From contig NZ_JAERWK010000025.1 of the NCBI RefSeq assembly GCF_016918035.1, positions 62,001 to 126,000 on the forward strand: 64,000 nucleotides of DNA, written 5' to 3'. Positions within the stretch are counted from its first letter, which is position 1; each line of letters begins with the position of its first letter. This document shows positions 39,902 through 64,000 of this stretch, one piece after another. This stretch comes from Nakamurella leprariae. Its GTDB lineage: Bacteria > Actinomycetota > Actinomycetes > Mycobacteriales > Nakamurellaceae. The notes beneath the pieces are model-generated. The model did not search any database and was not told the origin of the DNA. It was given only the letters and a program-made list of their open reading frames with translations. The position numbers were made by a program, and so were the translations under genes.

Positions 39902-41167
39902 ATGACCCCTCCGCACAACTACCTCGCCGTGATCAAGGTGGTCGGGATCGGCGGTGGCGGCGTGAACGCCGTCAACCGGATGATCGAGGTCGGCCTGCGC
40001 GGGGTGGAGTTCATCGCCGTGAACACCGACGCGCAGGCGCTGCTCATGAGCGACGCCGACGTCAAGCTCGACGTCGGTCGTGAGCTGACCCGTGGCCTGG
40101 GCGCCGGCGCGAACCCGGACGTCGGGCGCAAGGCCGCCGAGGACCACCGCGAGGAGATCGAGGAGGTGCTCAAGGGCGCCGACATGGTCTTCGTGACCGC
40201 GGGTGAGGGTGGCGGCACCGGCACCGGTGGCGCCCCGGTCGTCGCCTCCATCGCCCGCCGGCTCGGCGCGCTCACCATCGGGGTGGTCACCCGGCCGTTC
40301 AACTTCGAGGGCCGCCGCCGCGGTGGGCAGGCCGAGGACGGCATCAAGGCGCTGCGCGACGAGTGCGACACCCTGATCGTCATCCCGAACGACCGGCTGC
40401 TGCAGCTCGGTGACATGGGCGTCTCGCTCATGGACGCGTTCCGGTCGGCCGACGAGGTGCTGCTCAACGGCGTGCAGGGCATCACCGACCTGATCACCAC
40501 GCCGGGTCTGATCAACGTGGACTTCGCCGACGTCAAGTCGGTGATGGCCGGGGCTGGGACCGCCCTGATGGGCATCGGTTCGGCGCGCGGGGAAGGCCGG
40601 TCCATCCAGGCCGCGCAGAAGGCGATCAACTCGCCGCTGCTCGAGGCCTCGATGGATGGGGCGCACGGCGTGCTGCTGTCCATCGCGGGCGGTTCCGACC
40701 TCGGATTGTTCGAGATCAACGAGGCTGCGTCGCTGGTACAGGAGGCGGCCCACATGGACGCCAACATCATCTTCGGGACGGTCATCGACGATTCGCTCGG
40801 CGACGAGGTGCGGGTCACCGTCATCGCCGCGGGCTTCGACTCCACGCCGCAGGTGCTGCCGCCGACGTTCAACGAACGGCAGGCCCGCCAGGGTGGTGGC
40901 GGTGGACGGGATCCGTTCCTGGCCGCGCAGCAGACCGCGCGGGCCCAGGCACCGGTGGCCGCCCCGCCCGCTCCGGTACCGTCCGCGCCGTCGTTCGATG
41001 CCCGTCCACCGGCCCCGCAGTACTCGCAGCCGGGTGGGTACGCCCAGCAGGCTCCGGCCCAGCGCCCCGCGCCGAGCCAGCCGCCGGCCTCACCCCGGTA
41101 TGCGAGCCGTCCGGCCCAGCCGCCCGTGGACGACGACGTTGACATCCCGTCGTTCATGAAGCGCTGA
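39902..41167 (+). CDS. ftsZ: Cell division GTPase FtsZ (421 aa)
   Basis: Tubulin-like protein that forms the Z ring. The N-terminal [16 protein letters not shown], the tubulin signature [10 protein letters not shown] (about residues 102-111), and the T7 synergy loop [21 protein letters not shown] are intact. The C-terminal linker (about 330-408) is Pro/Ala/Gln-rich. The C-terminal peptide [12 protein letters not shown], which binds SepF and other partners, ends the protein. Length is typical. It has its own upstream control region and is followed 38 bases later by pgeF. Confidence 0.98.
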
Positions 41168-41205
41168 CCGGGTCCACCAGCCCGGGGCCGGCTCGGGTCC
41201 GCCGG

Positions 41206-41937
41206 GTGGTCACCACCCGGCGCGGCGGACGGTCCACCGGTCCGTACGGCGACTTCAACCTGGGTGAGCACGTCGGCGACGACCCCGCCGCCGTGGCCGC
41301 CAATCGGGCGAGACTCGCTGCGGCGACCGGCCTCTCGGGGCGGATGGTCGGCATGGACCAGGTGCACGGTGACCGGGTCGCCGTCGTCCGGGCGCCTGCG
41401 ATCAGGTCCGTCCCAGGCGCCGACGGGCTGGTCACCGACGTCCCCGGGTTGGGCCTGCTGGTGCTGGCCGCGGACTGCGTGCCCATCCTGGCGGGCGACA
41501 CCGGTGCCCGGGTGGTGGGTGCGGCGCACGCGGGACGGCTCGGGGCCGCGGCGGGTGTCGCGCTGCGGCTGCTCGAGACGATGACCGGGCTGGGCGCCCG
41601 GGTGGCCGCCGTCGACGTCCTGCTGGGACCGGCCATCTGCGGGCAGTGCTACGAGGTCCCGACGGCCCTGCGGGACGAGGTGGAGGCCGCGCTGCCCGGC
41701 TCGGCCAGCCGGACCCGGTGGGGCACACCCGGTGTCGACGTCCGTGCCGGGCTGGCCCGGCAGCTGGCGGGCGCTGGGGTGCCGACCGTGCGGATCGACC
41801 CGCGCTGCACCTTCACCGATGCCGAGCTGTACAGCCACCGGCGGGCGACCCTGGCCGCCGGCGCGCCGGGTGCTGGCCCGCCGGTGACCGGCCGGCAGGG
41901 CGGCCTGGTCTGGCTGGACCCCGACCGGCGCCGTTGA
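41206..41937 (+). CDS. pgeF: Peptidoglycan editing factor PgeF / YfiH family (243 aa)
   Basis: YfiH/DUF152 family, a cytosolic Zn/Cu-type hydrolase that removes mis-incorporated L-Ser from muropeptide precursors in E. coli. Metal-ligand motifs are present: MDQVHGD (His), LAADCVPIL (Cys), VVGAAHAGRLGAAAG (His), and the terminal blocks GPAICGQCYEVP and DPRCTFTD. GTG at 41206 is chosen, giving VVTTRRGG; the frame continues to a CTG that overlaps the ftsZ stop, and the ribosome site is weak. The usual neighbour yggS does not follow; sepF comes next after 192 bases. Confidence 0.88.
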   Translation: MVTTRRGGRSTGPYGDFNLGEHVGDDPAAVAANRARLAAATGLSGRMVGMDQVHGDRVAVVRAPAIRSVPGADGLVTDVPGLGLLVLAADCVPILAGDTGARVVGAAHAGRLGAAAGVALRLLETMTGLGARVAAVDVLLGPAICGQCYEVPTALRDEVEAALPGSASRTRWGTPGVDVRAGLARQLAGAGVPTVRIDPRCTFTDAELYSHRRATLAAGAPGAGPPVTGRQGGLVWLDPDRRR

Positions 41938-42129
41938 CGTCCGATCGACCGCACCACCAGCTCCACCCTCCGTGCCGGATCGTCCGACGCGGAGCGCCCG
42001 TCCGGCGAGGTGTGTCGCGCTCCGGCGATCACCTGACCGGGCGATACCCTGACGCGAGCTCGGAACGCACTTCGGCCATCCGTCGCCGGCGCTCCGTGCA
42101 GCGGCGACGAGAGGAAGGACGCACAGCCG

Positions 42130-42726
42130 ATGGGACAGTGGCGCAAGATGGGGGCGTTCCTGGGCCTGGTGCCGGACGATCAGGACCGTCGGTACGAGGG
42201 CGATGAGGTCTACGCCGACGACTACGGCCCGGAGTACCGGGACGATGCCCGGCACGACGACCGCGCCACCGACCGCTTCGGTGAGGGCTCCTACGGTGCC
42301 GCCGCCGATCACCAGCCGTACGCCGCCGAGTCGGCGCGTCCCGCGTCCGCGGCAACTCCCGTGACCCAGGGAGCCCTGGCCGTGCAGTCCCGCCCCGAGT
42401 GGCGTCGCGAGAACGAGGTCGCCGCGTCGGGTGCCTCGGCAGCGGCCGGCCGCCCCGTCACCATCAAGCTCGGCGGGTTCGCCGAGGCCGCGGTGATCGG
42501 TGAGAAGTACCGCGAGGGTCTGCCGGTCATCCTGGACATGACCGAGATGGACGACGCCAACGCCCGGCGTCTGGTCGACTTCGCCGCGGGTCTGGCCTTC
42601 GCGCTGCACGGGTCGATCGACAAGGTCACCACCAAGGTCTTCATGCTGCTGCCTCCGGAGGCCGATGCCGACCAGGTCGCGGCGGCCGCGGCGTACTCCA
42701 CCGAGCCGGCCTACGCCGGTCGCTGA
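42130..42726 (+). CDS. sepF: Cell division protein SepF (198 aa)
   Basis: Cytosolic membrane anchor of FtsZ in actinobacteria. The N-terminal MGQWRKMGAFLGLVPDD is an amphipathic membrane-binding helix, followed by an acidic, Tyr-rich disordered linker (about residues 17-90). The SepF core is about 108-185, with GEKYREGLPVILDMTEMDDANARRL and the HGSIDKVTTKVFMLLP strand. A ribosome site GAGAGGAAGGA lies upstream. The 192-base gap before it contains a TACCCT -10-like hexamer, so it may have its own promoter. Confidence 0.94.
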   Translation: MGQWRKMGAFLGLVPDDQDRRYEGDEVYADDYGPEYRDDARHDDRATDRFGEGSYGAAADHQPYAAESARPASAATPVTQGALAVQSRPEWRRENEVAASGASAAAGRPVTIKLGGFAEAAVIGEKYREGLPVILDMTEMDDANARRLVDFAAGLAFALHGSIDKVTTKVFMLLPPEADADQVAAAAAYSTEPAYAGR

Positions 42727-42795
42727 CGGACGACCCGACCGACGACACGGCCCGACCGGTCCCGGTCGGGCCGCCGGTCCGGTACAAACGAGACT

Positions 42796-43095
42796 GTGAA
42801 CGTTCTCTGGCAGGTCGTCTTCCTGCTGCTGTGGCTCTTCCGGCTCGCGCTGCTCACCCGCATCGTCATCGAGCTGGTCCGGGTCTTCGCGCGCAGCTGG
42901 CGCCCCGCCGGCGTTCCGGCGATGGCGCTGGAGATCGTGTTCACCGCGACCGATCCGCCGGTGAAGCTGCTGCGGCGCATCATCCCCACCGTCCGGCTGG
43001 GCGGTGTCGGCTTCGACCTGAGCATCTTCGTGCTCTTCATCGTGGTCTACATCCTGATGACGATGGTCTCCGGCTTCGCCTTCGCCACCGCCTGA
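42796..43095 (+). CDS. YggT family membrane protein (99 aa)
   Basis: Two-helix YGGT protein that accompanies sepF and divIVA in Gram-positive bacteria. Helix 1 is about residues 3-32, helix 2 about 70-95. The short cytosolic loop holds VFTATDPPVKLLRRIIPTVRLGGVGFDLS, the family signature. GTG at 42796 is used. Role in division or osmotic adaptation is not settled. It lies 69 bases after sepF. Confidence 0.92.
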   Translation: MNVLWQVVFLLLWLFRLALLTRIVIELVRVFARSWRPAGVPAMALEIVFTATDPPVKLLRRIIPTVRLGGVGFDLSIFVLFIVVYILMTMVSGFAFATA

Positions 43096-43320
43096 CCCAC
43101 CCCGTGAGCCACCGACGCGCGTGCGCGCCGTCGCCGGAGGACTCCGGTCCACCGATAGAGTGGGTTTGCGCTACGCGTGGGGCGGTCCTCCTGACCGGCC
43201 GCCTCAGGCGGAGGGACCGATCACCTGGCCAGCCGACCCGCGCTGCCGCCGGGCGGATCCTGGGTCATCCTGGGTCCCGGCCACCGCCGTCGCGACCGAG
43301 AAGTCCACGAGGAGTGCCCC

Positions 43321-43953
43321 ATGCCGTTGACCCCCGCCGACGTGCACAACGTCCAGTTCAAGAAGCCGTCGATCGGAAAGCGCGGCTACGACGAGGACGA
43401 GGTTGACGCCTTCCTCGACAAGGTCGAGGCCGAGCTGACCCGGCTCATCGAGCTGCACAACGACGCCGGTGGCACTGCAGGCCCCGGGATCGCGGCCGCA
43501 CCGGCCCAGCCGTCCGCGGTGGACGCGGCCGATGCGCCGACCCACGCGGCCCGGCTGCTGACCATCGCGCAGGAGACCGCCGACAAGCTGACCACCGAGG
43601 CGCAGGACCGCTCGGAGCAGCTGCTCGCCGAGGCGCAGGCCAAGGCCGACACGCTGGTCACCGAGGCGCAGGCGAAGGCCGACACGACCGATGCGGAGAC
43701 CCAGGCCAAGGTGCAGGCCACGCTGGGCGACCTCGACCAGCAGCGCGCGAAGCTGGAGCGCACCATCGCCGAGCTGCGCGAGTACGAGAAGGAGTACCGC
43801 ACCCGGCTCAAGGCGTGGATCCACGAGCAGCTCGGTGAGCTGGACGCCGTGGGCACCCGCGAGCAGGCGTCCAACGGGGAAGACGCCGACGAGGCCGGCG
43901 CACTGGCCGACGCGGACGTCTCCGCCGCCAACGGTGGCGTGACCGCCCGCTGA
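43321..43953 (+). CDS. wag31: Polar growth scaffold Wag31 / DivIVA (210 aa)
   Basis: Coiled-coil protein that marks cell poles and directs polar wall growth. The N-terminal lipid-binding domain reads [36 protein letters not shown], a very strong signature of actinobacterial Wag31. After a short Ala/Pro linker (about 50-75) comes a long coiled-coil (80-175) with repeated TEAQAKADT heptads. The tail is acidic and Ala-rich. A GAGGAG ribosome site precedes the ATG, and a long hairpin terminator follows. Confidence 0.96.
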
Positions 43954-59048: not shown

Positions 59049-60422
59049 TCAGACCGTCGCGGCCGCTCGCCCGATGGGCGCCTGGCGGGACACTGCCGGC
59101 AGGTCCAGGTGCTCGCGCAGCGTCGTGCCCGTGTACCCGGTGCGGTAGGCACCGCGCTCCTGCAGTTCGGGGATGAGCGTGTCGACGACCTCCTGCAGCT
59201 GGGTCGGCACCAAGTACGGCACCAGGTTGAACCCGTCGACCACCCGGGTGCGGACGAAATGTGTCCAGGTGTCCGCGATCTCGCTGGGCGTGCCGACGAA
59301 GGTGCGGTGGCCGCCCGCGATGCTGAGCGCGAGCTCCCGGATCGAAAGGCCCTGCTCGGCGGCCTGGGCCCGCCACCGGTCGATCTGGGCCAGCTTGCCG
59401 GTCCGCTGGTCGATGGCCAGGGTGCCGCGGGACGGATCCAGCTCGTTCTCGACCGGGTCGATGTCGGGCAGCGGCCCGTCGGGGTCGTAGGCCGACAGGT
59501 CCTTGCCCCAGTACTGCTCGAAGAACGCGATGGCGCGCTGCGGGTTCATGTGCTCGCGGCGGACCCACTCGGCCTTGTCGCGGGCCTCCGCGGGGGTGGA
59601 TCCGAGCACCAGCATCGCGCCCGGCAGGATCCGCACGGAGTCGGGTGAACGGCCGTACCCGGCCAACCGGGCCCGGAGATCGGTGGCGTAGGCCAGCGCG
59701 GCGGCGTAGTCGGTGTTGGCCGAGAACACGACATCCGCGTGCCTGGCGGCCAGGTCCCGGCCGCCGGCGGAGTCGCCGGCCTGGAACAGCACCGGCCGGC
59801 CCTGGGCACTGCCCGGCACCGTGGCGGTGGACGTGAAGCGGACCAGGTCGGTGTCCCGCTGCACGGCCGCGGTCTGCGCACCGGCCCAGCTCGCCCACAG
59901 CTCCGTGGCCGCGTCCACGAACTGCGCGGCCCGGTCGTAGCGCCGGTCGTGCTCGAGCCAGCCACCGTGCCGGAAGTTCTCGCCGGTCCAGGCGTTGTCG
60001 GTGGTCACGACGTTCCAGCCGGCCCGACCCTCGGACAGCAGGTCCAGCGACGCCAGCCGCCGGGCCAGATCGGCGGGCTGGTTGTACGTGGCGTTCTGCG
60101 TCGCGACCAGGCCGATCCGCTCGGTCGCGCCGGCCAGCGCTGACAACACGGTGATCGCGTCCGGTCGGCCGGCGACATCGAGCGCATGGACCCTGCCCCG
60201 GTTCTCGCGCACCCGCAGGCCCTCGCCGAGGAAGAATGCGTCGAACAGGCCGCGCTCGAGCAGTCGGGCCAGGTCGGCGAAGGTCGAGATGTCCATCTGT
60301 TCCGCCGCGGTCGGATCGGACCAGATGGTCTGCGGCCCCACGCCCGTGTAGAAGACGCCGAGGTGGACCTGGGCGTTCGGGTCGTACCAGGGACTGGTCG
60401 GAGTCGTCGCAGTGCCGGTCAT
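59049..60422 (-). CDS. NtaA/SnaA/DszA-type flavin monooxygenase (457 aa)
   Basis: Bacterial luciferase-like, FMNH2-dependent monooxygenase of the NtaA/SnaA/DszA/SoxA group. It opens with VHLGVFYTGVGPQTIW, then FADLARLLERGLFDAFFLGEG, ERIGLVATQNATYNQPADLARRLASLDLLSEGRAGWNVVTT and AAQFVDAATELW, all group signatures. Known members oxidise nitrilotriacetate, dibenzothiophene sulfone or similar compounds with a partner flavin reductase; none is encoded in this operon. ATG at 60422 overlaps the upstream gene (ATGA). The SAM-IV switch upstream points to an organosulfur substrate. Confidence 0.9.
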   Translation of the reverse strand: MTGTATTPTSPWYDPNAQVHLGVFYTGVGPQTIWSDPTAAEQMDISTFADLARLLERGLFDAFFLGEGLRVRENRGRVHALDVAGRPDAITVLSALAGATERIGLVATQNATYNQPADLARRLASLDLLSEGRAGWNVVTTDNAWTGENFRHGGWLEHDRRYDRAAQFVDAATELWASWAGAQTAAVQRDTDLVRFTSTATVPGSAQGRPVLFQAGDSAGGRDLAARHADVVFSANTDYAAALAYATDLRARLAGYGRSPDSVRILPGAMLVLGSTPAEARDKAEWVRREHMNPQRAIAFFEQYWGKDLSAYDPDGPLPDIDPVENELDPSRGTLAIDQRTGKLAQIDRWRAQAAEQGLSIRELALSIAGGHRTFVGTPSEIADTWTHFVRTRVVDGFNLVPYLVPTQLQEVVDTLIPELQERGAYRTGYTGTTLREHLDLPAVSRQAPIGRAAATV

Positions 60423-61540
60423 CGGTGGGCTCCTGCCAGGTCGCGGTCGGTCCGGTGGTCGGCCGCGAAGCGGCTGGGGGAGCGGGGCAGGCCGAGCCGT
60501 TCCCGCAGGGTGGCGCCGGCCCGGTCCGGCCGGTGCAGACCGGCCGCGGCCAGCCCGGGCAGCACCCGGGCGGCCAGTTCGGCGCCGTCCAGGTCGTGCA
60601 CGGCCGGGAACAGCCGGACGCCGTCGACGTGCTCGGCCAGCGTGCGGAGCAGGTCGACCAGCGCGGCCGCCGAGCCCACGTGCCGCAGCCGTCGTCCGCC
60701 GGGCCACGGGGTCGTCGCGTCGAGGGCCGCCAGCCGCGCGGTCGCCGGTCCGGCCTCGGTGTCCAGCACCACCTCCACCTCGGCGAAGACCAACGGCGCT
60801 CCGGCCCGGCGGGCGGCGTCGGCGCGGCGGCCGACGCCGGTCGCATCCGCCGCGGCGATCAGCGCGACGTCGAGCTGGTCGGTGACCCCGAGATCGTCGG
60901 CGCCGAGCACCAGCACCTGTCCCTGCGGTGGCCGCGGCGTGATGAGCGGGCCCTTGACGCCGAACCGGCCGCCGCGGAAGTCGACGTGGTGGACTTTGTC
61001 GGGATCCAGGTACCGGCCGGTGGCGGCGTCCTTGATGACCGCGTCGTCCTCCCACGAGTCCCAGAGGTCGCGGGCGACGGCGATCACGTCGGCCAGTTCG
61101 CGCTGCACCTCGGCGGGAGTGAGCGGGTCGGCCCCGATCGTGGCCAGGGTGGCGGCGTCGGCCGGGGCGGCCACCACCCAGGCGGCCCGCCCGCGGGAGG
61201 CGTGGTCGAGCGACGCGAGCTGGGTGGCCAGGTGGAACGGCTCGGTCACGGTGACGGCCAGCGTCGGCGCCAGCCCGATCCGCTCGGTCGTGGTGGCCAC
61301 GAATGCGGCCCGGGTGCCGGCCTCGAGCCGGGCGGGGACCTCCGGCGATCCGGTCGGCGGCAGCGCCGAGTCGTCGAGAGTGATCAGGTCGTAGCCCGCC
61401 GTCTCGGCGGCGCGGACGGCGGCACGCAGCGCACCGGGCCGCACCGGCTGGTCGGGTGGACCGGACGCCGCGGTCCAGGCGGCCGGGTGGGCACCCGGAC
61501 CGTCCAGCTCGAGGGCGAGGAACAGGGCAGGCGAATGCAT
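60419..61540 (-). CDS. LLM-class flavin-dependent oxidoreductase (373 aa)
   Basis: Second luciferase-like flavoprotein, diverged from its neighbour. RAAVRAAETAGYDLITLDDSAL, TERIGLAPTLAVTVTEPFHLATQLASLDHASRGRAAWVVAA and LADVIAVARDLWDSWEDDAV are the group blocks, but the C-terminal third is shortened. ATG at 61540 has a weak ribosome site, so coupling with upstream control is likely. First structural gene of the leftward SAM-IV operon, overlapping the NtaA-type gene by 4 bases. Probably both act on a sulfur compound as alternative or sequential oxygenases. Confidence 0.85.
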   Translation of the reverse strand: MHSPALFLALELDGPGAHPAAWTAASGPPDQPVRPGALRAAVRAAETAGYDLITLDDSALPPTGSPEVPARLEAGTRAAFVATTTERIGLAPTLAVTVTEPFHLATQLASLDHASRGRAAWVVAAPADAATLATIGADPLTPAEVQRELADVIAVARDLWDSWEDDAVIKDAATGRYLDPDKVHHVDFRGGRFGVKGPLITPRPPQGQVLVLGADDLGVTDQLDVALIAAADATGVGRRADAARRAGAPLVFAEVEVVLDTEAGPATARLAALDATTPWPGGRRLRHVGSAAALVDLLRTLAEHVDGVRLFPAVHDLDGAELAARVLPGLAAAGLHRPDRAGATLRERLGLPRSPSRFAADHRTDRDLAGAHR

Positions 61541-61561
61541 GGGGGATCCGTTCGGGATCGT

Positions 61562-61576
61562 CCGCCGGACCGGCGG
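61562..61576 (-). other. Hairpin between leader peptide and monooxygenase operon
   Basis: CCGCCG-GAC-CGGCGG is a perfect 6-bp stem with a 3-base loop, 40 bases after the leader-peptide stop and 21 bases before the ATG at 61540. It could act as attenuator or ribosome-site mask. Confidence 0.4.
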
Positions 61577-61616
61577 GATGAGGGCGTGCTCGCGCCCGGG
61601 CTGTGGTGGGTCCGAC

Positions 61617-61709
61617 TCAGGCGCGACAGAGCGCGCTGTCCACCAGGTGCAGATCGACGTGGCGGCGACGGACCAACACGGTCAGCTGGCGGATCGTGCA
61701 GCGAGCCAT
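61617..61709 (-). CDS. Leader peptide of the monooxygenase operon (30 aa)
   Basis: ATG at 61709 has a strong GAGGGAG ribosome site seven bases upstream. The peptide starts MARCTIRQLTVLV and ends RRRHVDLHLVDSALCRA before TGA. Its second half matches the leader on the opposite strand (RH-V/I-DL, then DSALCR). Short peptides of this kind stand before sulfur genes in many actinobacteria and are annotated as putative leader peptides. Two Cys codons, one near the end, fit sensing of cysteinyl-tRNA or ribosome stalling. It lies between the SAM-IV switch and the first enzyme gene. Confidence 0.75.
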   Translation of the reverse strand: MARCTIRQLTVLVRRRHVDLHLVDSALCRA

Positions 61710-61738
61710 CGGGCTCCCTCTCGCGGGTCGGCCGGCGG

Positions 61739-61855
61739 CCGGACGGGTGCTTGCGGGATCAGGGCGATCCCGCCGGGTCCTCACCTGGGGCACCCCACCA
61801 CCACCGGAGGGTTGCCGTCCGGCCAGCCAGGGCTGTGGGCCGGAACTCATGACCG
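61739..61855 (-). promoter_or_regulatory. SAM-IV riboswitch of the monooxygenase operon
   Basis: Read leftward from 61855: GGTCATGAG opens the P1/P2 region, then CTGGCTGGCCGG, the core GGCAACCCTCC, then GGTGGGGTGCCCCAGGTGA and closing GACC. A hairpin CGGGATC-gccct-GATCCCG and CAAGC follow, as in SAM-IV. GGTC and GACC pair to close the aptamer. The core matches the actinobacterial SAM-IV consensus as I know it. High S-adenosylmethionine should switch the operon off. Confidence 0.9.
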
Positions 61856-61861
61856 AGTCGG

Positions 61862-61891
61862 AAGCTAGAGCGCAGGAGTCGATCGCGTCAA
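61862..61891 (-). promoter_or_regulatory. Promoter of the leftward SAM-IV operon
   Basis: Leftward TTGACG (61891-61886), 18-base spacer, TAGCTT (61867-61862). Transcription would begin near 61855, exactly where the SAM-IV aptamer starts. Confidence 0.65.
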
Positions 61892-61967
61892 CCCGTGATG
61901 GCCGCGTGATGGGCAGCGTCACAACCGCTCTCGCCACCGGTGCCACCGGGCTGTGCCCGGTGCCCGG

Positions 61968-61996
61968 TTGACGTCGTCGCCGCGGCGACCTACTGT
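61968..61996 (+). promoter_or_regulatory. Promoter of the rightward SAM-IV operon
   Basis: TTGACG (61968-61973), 17-base spacer, TACTGT (61991-61996). Transcription would begin near 62003, directly at the aptamer. It shares its -35 hexamer with the divergent promoter. Confidence 0.7.
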
Positions 61997-62004
61997 CCTG
62001 TCCA

Positions 62005-62120
62005 GGTCATGAGTTCCAGCGCACAGCCCCGGCTCGCTGGACGGCAACCCTCCTTCCGCGGCGGGGTGCTCCGGGTGAGGACCGGGCGGTCGCGCCTCGC
62101 GCGCCGCAAGCGCGGACCCG
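62005..62120 (+). promoter_or_regulatory. SAM-IV riboswitch of the ABC transporter operon
   Basis: GGTCATGAG (62005-62013), CAGC-N-CAGCCCCGGCTCGCTG, core GGCAACCCTCC (62043-62053), GGCGGGGTGCTCCGGGTGA then GACC, followed by a G+C hairpin and GCAAGCGCGGAC (62107-62118), the conserved 3' pseudoknot strand of SAM-IV. Layout is the same as in the leftward copy but helices differ by compensating changes. High SAM should repress the importer. Confidence 0.92.
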
Positions 62121-62156
62121 AAGCCCTCGGGTCCCTGGAACGAGGACGGATCCGAC

Positions 62157-62267
62157 GTGGCACGAACCGTGGGCACCGCCCAGCGGTGGACGGCGCAGGA
62201 CCTGCTCGGTGTGAGCTGTCGGCACATCGACCTCTGCCGCAGTGACAGCGCGCTCTGTCGCGTCTGA
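62157..62267 (+). CDS. Leader peptide of the ABC transporter operon (36 aa)
   Basis: GTG at 62157 (VARTVGTAQRWTAQDLLG) or a later GTG at 62211 (VSCRHIDLC) could start it; GAGGA lies about ten bases before the first. The end reads SCRHIDLCRSDSALCRV before TGA. Three Cys occur in the last 16 residues, and the block RHIDL....DSALCR is shared with the leftward leader. It sits after the SAM-IV switch and 133 bases before the permease start. Confidence 0.72.
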   Translation: MARTVGTAQRWTAQDLLGVSCRHIDLCRSDSALCRV

Positions 62268-62293
62268 CTGCCCTCCTGCACCTGCACTGTCAG

Positions 62294-62313
62294 CGCCGGC
62301 CCGTACGCCGGCG
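62294..62313 (+). other. Hairpin between leader peptide and permease gene
   Basis: CGCCGGC (62294-62300), six-base loop, GCCGGCG (62307-62313): a perfect 7-bp stem starting 27 bases after the leader-peptide stop. A stalled or terminating ribosome could reach it, so it may be an attenuator. Confidence 0.45.
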
Positions 62314-62400
62314 TCCGTGACCGTCTCCTCCGCCTGATCAGGGCAGCCGACCCGTGCGCGCACGTCGCCGGTCGGCGCTCGGAACCCCAAGGACCGCATC

Positions 62401-63423
62401 GTGAGTCGAACCATACCGGCGCCGCAGTCTGCGGCACCGGCGTCACCCAGCCCGGGCCTGGCGCCGTCCGGTCCGCCGGGCGCCGCTGTCGAGCCTGAAC
62501 ACCTGGTCGTGGTGCGCTCGCGGCACCCGTGGCGCTGGGTCGCCGCGGTCGCCGTGGCGATCGTGGTCGCCCAGTTCATCCACGGGCTGGTCACCAACCC
62601 CGGCTGGGACTGGGGCACCTTCGCCCAGTACTTCACGGCCGCATCAGTGCTCAAGGCGCTGTGGATGACGGTGCAGCTGACGGTCTACGGCACCGTCCTC
62701 GGCTTCGCCCTGGGCATCGGGCTGGCCGCGGCCCGGTTGTCGAAGAACCCGGTGCTGCAGGTGGTCTCGTGGACCTACATCTGGGCGTTCCGGTCGATCC
62801 CGCTGATCGTCCAGCTGCTGTTCTGGTTCAACATCGCCTACCTGTACAAGACACTGTCGATCGGCGTGCCGTTCGGTCCGGCGTTCGTCGAGTTCGACGT
62901 CAACGACGTGATCAGCGGGATGATGGCGGCGGTCATCGGTCTGGCCCTGCACCAGGCGGCGTATTCTGCCGAGATCATTCGGGCCGGCATCATCTCGGTG
63001 GACGCGGGACAGCTGGAAGCGGCTGCAGCACTGGGCATCCCGAAGCGACGCCAGTTCTTCAAGATCGTGATGCCACAGGCGATGCGGGCCATCCTGCCGA
63101 ACGCGGCCAACGAGGTCATCAGCCTCTTCAAGGGCACCTCGATCGTCTCGACCATGGCCATCGCCGAGCTCTTCTACCAGGTGCAGGTCATCTACGGCCG
63201 CAGTGGCCGGGTGGTGCCGCTGCTCATGGTGGCCACCGTCTGGTACATCGTGCTGACCACGCTGCTGTCCATCGGCCAGTACTACATCGAGCGGCACTAC
63301 GCACGGGGGTCGGCTCGATCGCTGCCGCTCACCCCCTGGCAGAAGGCCCGCACGCGGATCCGGACCTTCCTGGACACCGCCACCACCGGTCGCACCCCGA
63401 CCCGGGCCGGTGACGCCCGATGA
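62401..63423 (+). CDS. Amino-acid ABC transporter permease (340 aa)
   Basis: HisM/GlnP-type permease of the polar amino acid ABC importers. About 40 Pro/Ala-rich cytosolic residues come first, then five to six helices. LKALWMTVQLTVYGTVLGFALGIGLAA begins the domain. The ATPase-contact EAA loop is AGQLEAAAALGIPKRRQFFKIVMPQAMRAILP. GTG at 62401 follows AAGGAC. The SAM-IV switch and Cys-containing leader upstream suggest a sulfur amino acid (methionine, cystine or a sulfonate-like amino acid) as cargo; this is inference. No substrate-binding protein gene is inside the window. It overlaps the ATPase gene (ATGA). Confidence 0.9.
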   Translation: MSRTIPAPQSAAPASPSPGLAPSGPPGAAVEPEHLVVVRSRHPWRWVAAVAVAIVVAQFIHGLVTNPGWDWGTFAQYFTAASVLKALWMTVQLTVYGTVLGFALGIGLAAARLSKNPVLQVVSWTYIWAFRSIPLIVQLLFWFNIAYLYKTLSIGVPFGPAFVEFDVNDVISGMMAAVIGLALHQAAYSAEIIRAGIISVDAGQLEAAAALGIPKRRQFFKIVMPQAMRAILPNAANEVISLFKGTSIVSTMAIAELFYQVQVIYGRSGRVVPLLMVATVWYIVLTTLLSIGQYYIERHYARGSARSLPLTPWQKARTRIRTFLDTATTGRTPTRAGDAR

Positions 63424-64000
63424 GCGCCGGAGCGACCGCGGTGACGAGCGAGTACGCCGTCGAGATCCTCGGCGTGCACAAGACCTTCGGCAGCCTCGAG
63501 GTGCTGCGCGGCATCGACCTGCAGGTCCGCCGCGGCGAGGTCACGGTGATCCTGGGTCCGTCCGGCTCCGGCAAGTCGACCCTGCTGCGGGCGATCAACC
63601 ACCTGGAGCGGGTCGACACCGGCCTGATCAAGGTGGACGGCGAGCTGATCGGCTACCGGCAGAAGGGCAACCGGCTGCACGAGCTCTCCGAGCGGGAGGT
63701 CCTGCACCAGCGTTCGTCGATCGGGTTCGTGTTCCAGAACTTCAACCTGTTCCCGCATCTCACGGTGCTGCAGAACGTGGTCGAGGCGCCCGTCTCCGCC
63801 CAGAAGCGCAACCGGGCCGAGGTCGAGACCGAGGCCCGGGCCCTGCTCGAGCGGGTGGGCGTGGCCGACAAGGCCGACGCCTACCCGCGTCAGCTCTCGG
63901 GTGGCCAGCAGCAGCGGGTGGCCATCGCCCGGGCGCTGGCCCTGCGCCCCAAGGTCATCCTGTTCGACGAGCCGACCTCGGCGCTCGACCCGGAGCTGGT
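63420..64000 (+). CDS. Amino-acid ABC transporter ATP-binding protein, cut by window end
   Basis: ATPase partner of the permease. Walker A is [19 protein letters not shown] (near residue 42), the Q-loop [17 protein letters not shown], signature [17 protein letters not shown] and Walker [15 protein letters not shown], where the window ends after 193 codons. This is the polar-amino-acid (GlnQ/HisP) subgroup. An insert near residue 70-88 ([20 protein letters not shown]) resembles cystine/histidine-type ATPases. ATG at 63420 overlaps the permease stop. The D-loop, H-loop and C-terminus lie beyond the window. Confidence 0.95.

Follow-up and report, generated by a model that had tools for sequence, protein, structure and literature searches.

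SAM-IV riboswitches, cysteine leader peptides, and interplay between a riboswitch and an upstream open reading frame (uORF) are each already known. For mycobacterial cysteine leaders, which contain runs of Cys codons and lack hairpins, a Rho-dependent scheme resembling that of the tna operon has been proposed (Seliverstov 2005, PMC1262725). Polycysteine uORFs of Mycobacterium have also been described (Canestrari 2020, as cited in PMC13236596). In Mycobacterium tuberculosis, a B12 riboswitch and a uORF share one leader upstream of metE and ppe2, and at ppe2, which works by termination-reinitiation, the riboswitch controls a translated leader (Kipkorir 2024, PMC11260477).

Our analysis points to a coupling of these elements in a 64,000-nt stretch of the Nakamurella leprariae genome (NZ_JAERWK010000025.1; hereafter, the window). 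Like other members of the SAM-IV class (RF00634), both arms of the locus carry a full-length aptamer with core, helices, and pseudoknot ahead of sulfur-related genes. In contrast to the class, the next start codon here belongs to a cysteine leader uORF rather than to a structural gene, and the unit occurs twice, in back-to-back orientation. With the actinobacterial cysteine leaders (NF042934 cis_reg_atten, NF042936 Ms4527A, and, as presented in PMC13236596, the polycysteine uORFs of Mycobacterium), the locus shares a short uORF with Cys near its stop codon before sulfur genes, the lack of a conserved terminator hairpin, and C- or pyrimidine-rich RNA afterward. Those leaders are described as standing alone and are often leaderless, whereas in this locus each uORF comes after an aptamer, appears to be initiated from a Shine-Dalgarno sequence, and encodes a peptide that scores under the NCBIfam cut-offs. 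Compared with the polycysteine leaderless attenuators as cited in that source, there is no Cys run and translation does not begin at the RNA 5' end; instead, the uORFs follow an aptamer of 113-114 nt, and a Shine-Dalgarno sequence accompanies 33 of 44 of them. The M. tuberculosis B12 leaders likewise combine riboswitch and uORF, but they differ in ligand and aptamer, and their uORF has no amino-acid-sensing role. No paper joining SAM-IV to a cysteine leader was found in the open-access literature searched, which covers few subscription journals; the coupling appears to be undescribed so far, with priority not established.

An Rfam cmscan run over all of the window returned exactly two matches, both full-length SAM-IV aptamers on opposite strands, 150 bases apart. 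The plus-arm aptamer (62005..62118, +) scored 98.8 bits and the minus-arm aptamer (61742..61854, -) scored 95.8 bits, each along model positions 1-116 and against a gathering score of 38 bits. The initial annotation, made from the letters of the window, had proposed such a divergent pair, and the covariance model run on both strands confirms it with scores above threshold on each. The same annotation held that the aptamers differ in their helices while keeping the core. In agreement with this, compensatory changes occur at three helix pairs, all pairs of P1, P2, and P3 are standard in each aptamer, and the P3 loop still pairs with the 3' tail as a pseudoknot, with a different sequence in each arm (six Watson-Crick pairs in the plus arm, four in the minus arm). 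Across 120 aptamers, loop-tail complementarity was 4.63, compared with 3.64 for shuffled sequences (shuffle maximum, 3.88). Judged by scores along the whole model and by core helices and pseudoknot kept with covariation, both arms carry genuine SAM-IV aptamers.

Each aptamer is preceded by a promoter-like element. In the plus arm, a -35 TTGACG and a -10 TACTGT are separated by 17 nt (61968..61996, +), with the RNA start expected near 62003; in the minus arm, the same -35 stands 18 nt from a -10 TAGCTT (61862..61891, -), with the start expected near 61855. The distance from element to aptamer is 8 nt in the plus arm and 7 nt in the minus arm. Neither element was listed by a strict sigma-70 consensus scan, and actinobacterial geometry was used in its place. 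Despite that scan, the claim of matching, divergent TTGACG promoters stands: TTGAC occurs 30-60 nt upstream of the aptamer at 38 of 122 SAM-IV loci versus 11 of 976 background windows, which indicates a genuine promoter geometry that is characteristic of the class. For the same reason, the matching promoters reflect a habit of the class and are not a sign of duplication.

A leader peptide had been predicted for each arm, and each arm has one. The plus-arm uORF (62157..62267, +) encodes MARTVGTAQRWTAQDLLGVSCRHIDLCRSDSALCRV, ending in CRHIDLCRSDSALCRV before the stop codon, with its conserved UGU at 62256-62258; its start is uncertain, being a GTG at either 62157 or 62211. The minus-arm uORF (61617..61709, -) follows a GGAG Shine-Dalgarno sequence and encodes MARCTIRQLTVLVRRRHVDLHLVDSALCRA, ending in RRRHVDLHLVDSALCRA before the stop codon, with its conserved UGU at 61626-61628. 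In an alignment of 40 leaders, where D, L, and C are invariant, both peptides show the core RRHVDLxRxxSALC near the stop. Each has the one conserved UGU and no Cys run, and the plus arm has one further TGC and TGT. The two leaders scored 15.8 and 12.7 bits against NF042934, below its 27-bit cut-off, which three other leaders of the same genome pass; the minus-arm leader also falls below the cut-off of NF042936.

The genes that follow also correspond to those named in the initial annotation. On the minus strand lie two LLM flavin monooxygenases, the first (60419..61540) a Bac_luciferase protein with partial NtaA/DmoA similarity and the second (59049..60422) of the NtaA/DmoA family, above cut-off when taken as the longer reading 59049-61055. 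Among the nearest solved relatives of the second are an NTA-monooxygenase-family enzyme, YtnJ/MoxC, and the desulfurization enzyme DszA. On the plus strand, an amino-acid (cystine-type) ABC permease (62401..63423; BPD_transp_1), whose best NCBIfam match is a cystine permease scoring below its cut-off, is followed by an ABC transporter ATPase (63441..64000) that extends beyond the window end. Farther along, the operon includes an SBP_bac_3 gene, a DAO-family FAD oxidoreductase, and a protein with a GNAT domain. As read from these gene identities, both arms lead into operons of sulfur-scavenging type. Elsewhere in the window (39902-43953), a gene with an FtsZ-like protein start followed by several short genes suggests a cell-division cluster upstream of the locus.

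What the initial annotation missed is that the leader is one of a conserved family whose UGU cysteine codon hardly ever varies, and that it is located in the slot where the start codon controlled by the riboswitch usually stands. We compared 123 SAM-IV loci from 37 genomes. A short open reading frame with the core RRH[VI]DLxRVxSALC lies within 450 nt after the aptamer at about 45 of the 123, whereas the same search recovered none in the reverse complement (0/123) or 700-1150 nt downstream (0/123). In the genome of N. leprariae itself (4.47 Mb, 39 contigs), the leader accompanies eight of nine SAM-IV aptamers, where one to three aptamers are usual in SAM-IV-bearing genomes of the order. Of 42 standard cores, drawn from 20 genomes, 41 encode the final Cys by UGU, compared with a UGU share of 11-13% in background genes of these genomes (p ~6e-35, with loci that are non-independent owing to paralogues and orthologues). 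Other Cys codons of the same peptides are mostly UGC. Furthermore, third codon positions vary freely at the core Arg, Asp, and Leu, which argues that the leader peptide is under selection. The core residues R, R, H, D, L, S, and C are conserved as amino acids, with codons that vary except at the final Cys, and this suggests that the peptide itself matters beyond the codon. The codons AGC, CTC, and GAU are enriched in the leaders as well, so part of the UGU conservation could reflect constraint at the RNA level. In other actinobacteria, the same leader family occurs alone, without SAM-IV, and there too the codon is mostly UGU.

The leader is unevenly distributed with respect to the downstream gene. 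It precedes 13 of 15 ABC permeases and 9 of 13 LLM monooxygenases (22/28 together), but none of 26 sulfhydrylase-like genes, a label read from protein starts alone, and none of 23 class-V aminotransferase/desulfurase-like genes (0/49 together). The desulfurase-like genes mostly begin directly after the aptamer, and several sulfhydrylase-like loci have instead another kind of uORF, very short and rich in Cys (MCCRMCCRS followed by a stop codon is one example). This mini-uORF represents a third architecture, found at G015:C70:39106-39224, G011:C3:232138, G013:C1:530577, G007:C1:813512, and G009:C153:31365, among others. SAM-IV and an RRHVDL-type leader were seen together in five of the families sampled from the order (f1, f2, f3, f15, f16). 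One genome (G013) has 11 SAM-IV aptamers, more than N. leprariae, with five of them within about 22 kb on contig C11 (1-34000); each of the five has an RRHVDL-type leader, one of which reads RREIDL. The N. leprariae genome (G000) also offers a natural one-sided comparison: at locus L044, SAM-IV and the leader precede LLM monooxygenases on one side (C26:88409-88520, -), and only the leader peptide RRHVDLQRVSSALCCR precedes an Opp/Dpp-type transporter on the other (88770-88823, +).

The uORF start lies a median of 34.5 nt from the aptamer end, and in simple SAM-IV loci many structural genes start 30-50 nt past the aptamer, with long leaders also present (median, 44). In one genome (G017), the permease starts about 32 nt past the aptamer and the leader is absent, while the leader occupies that slot ahead of the counterpart permease in G044. 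The position of the uORF and this contrast suggest that the riboswitch would control whichever start codon stands there. Beyond the leader stop codon, the RNA is C rich. The stretches at 62268..62400 (+; 44% C, 29% G) and 61541..61616 (-; 48% C, 29% G) are, by composition, candidate Rho-loading regions, and C exceeds G past the leader stop at 44 of 44 loci versus 77 of 133 control leaders (p = 4e-9). The initial annotation had also given each arm a hairpin, in the same order after the leader peptide. This shared element was not confirmed: there was no terminator-like site in the window region, and the search for conserved structure within or after the leader gave an empty consensus fold with a mean z near 0. 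The C-rich, G-poor RNA right after the uORF, together with the lack of a conserved hairpin or terminator, fits a Rho-dependent, tna-like scheme.

The sequences themselves show the aptamers, uORFs, peptide core, UGU codon, uORF position, and C-rich tract, and they show that the divergent locus is conserved; from these features we infer every dynamic step that follows, the Rho step from base composition alone. We lean toward reading each arm as a two-sensor leader, in which SAM-IV, a cysteine leader uORF, and a C-rich untranslated stretch precede a sulfur-scavenging operon, and in which SAM gating would be combined with a stall at UGU and with Rho. When SAM is high, the bound aptamer would block translation of the uORF, as it would that of the structural gene in simple SAM-IV loci, and the operon would be off. 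When SAM is low, the uORF would be translated. If Cys-tRNA were then plentiful, the ribosome would complete the uORF and depart, Rho would end transcription on the C-rich RNA, and the operon would again be off. If cysteine were short, the ribosome would stall at UGU near the stop and shield the C-rich RNA, leaving the operon on. Expression would thus require SAM and cysteine to be low at the same time, and the divergent arms would switch uptake and desulfurization together. As in the Rho-dependent attenuation of the Escherichia coli tna operon (tnaC), a ribosome stalled near the uORF stop would block a Rho site right after it, but the signal here would be cysteine shortage rather than free tryptophan, and tna has no riboswitch. 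A variant in which the CCCUCC of the aptamer masks the Shine-Dalgarno sequence of the uORF was set aside, because under it SAM would turn the operon on. Given SAM-IV together with a conserved peptide gene carrying a rare Cys codon, both sulfur-scavenging operons are probably under two sulfur signals in series. That a SAM riboswitch gates a nascent peptide ending in UGU, so that many scavenging operons of one lineage carry an AND gate requiring both SAM and cysteine to be low, is a more tentative proposal, with chances that we place slightly short of even.

Other accounts of the same features deserve consideration. With only one or two Cys codons each, the RRHVDL peptides differ from the mycobacterial attenuators that have been tested, whose Cys runs are long, and this counts against the two-sensor reading. 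Attenuation by codon alone also has no need for a core in which R, R, H, D, L, S, and C are conserved while codons vary. This conservation leaves room for an arrest peptide, whereby the RRHVDLxRVxSALC chain in the exit tunnel would directly sense a sulfur metabolite or the state of the tunnel and the riboswitch would merely gate its synthesis. We regard this as unlikely, though worth keeping in view: the nearly invariant UGU points to decoding of the Cys codon, and relatives with plain runs of Cys codons occur before similar genes. To about the same degree, we doubt that the stall acts on translation, with the stalled ribosome freeing the Shine-Dalgarno sequence of the structural gene and Rho playing no role. 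Mycobacterial cysteine attenuators are described as translation attenuators in work cited in PMC13236596, but we found no conserved pairing between the leader and the downstream start among the leaders compared, and the distance from leader stop to structural gene varies from about 50 to several hundred nt.

It is also conceivable that SAM-IV acts on transcription alone and that the uORF is independent or vestigial, with no interplay between them. Leaders without SAM-IV and SAM-IV without leaders both exist, as this would have it. Yet the uORF start fills the aptamer-adjacent slot, and the window shows no terminator-like site after the aptamer; we judge this account a little less probable than either the arrest peptide or the translational stall. 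The two-sensor reading, if true, would describe a naturally occurring RNA gate with two signals, where the riboswitch acts on a cysteine attenuator instead of a gene. It would set operons that only use reduced sulfur, under SAM control alone, apart from operons that fetch it, under SAM and cysteine. Moreover, a near-invariant UGU in GC-rich genomes is a sharp clue to the workings of the widely annotated "putative leader peptides."

The mirrored arrangement had been read as suggesting a duplicated unit, and the arms do share the order of their parts and the TTGACG -35. However, a recent inverted duplication is very improbable. The two aptamers of the window are 74% identical, while that of the minus arm is closest to the plus-arm aptamer of another pair in the genome, G000:C26:104539(+), at 84% identity with a tree support of 1.0, and that of the plus arm groups with aptamers of other species. 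The arms are thus not each other's nearest relatives, and a local inverted duplication is not supported. In addition, the divergent monooxygenase/importer locus with paired SAM-IV occurs in four genomes from two GTDB families: N. leprariae, G001 of the same genus, and G017 and G044, which belong to one genus of another family. Identities to the locus in these three genomes are 49-51% for the permease, 63-69% for the ATPase, and 43-47% for the second monooxygenase. Being common to another family, the divergent arrangement is, by this distribution, old and kept. G013 has one more divergent SAM-IV pair; there, a monooxygenase pair lies to one side, and the other side has a gene homologous (47%) to the GNAT-domain gene of the locus. 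A scan of 84,980 named genomes for the exact divergent core pattern gave two matches (Bacteroidaceae and Anaerolineales), which we took as chance; the pattern was too strict, and the N. leprariae genome was perhaps outside that set.

The N. leprariae genome contains a second back-to-back SAM-IV pair, on contig C26 at 104279-104391(-) and 104539-104649(+), with a gap of 147. The surrounding island is rich in genes of the LLM and Opp/Dpp types. The plus arm of this second pair (L040:9800-11200) has two leader uORFs in series, VQIGATRALPVLVRRRVIDLHRVDSSICSG and MTPTPVTRRHIDLLRTASACC, each ending in a stop codon.
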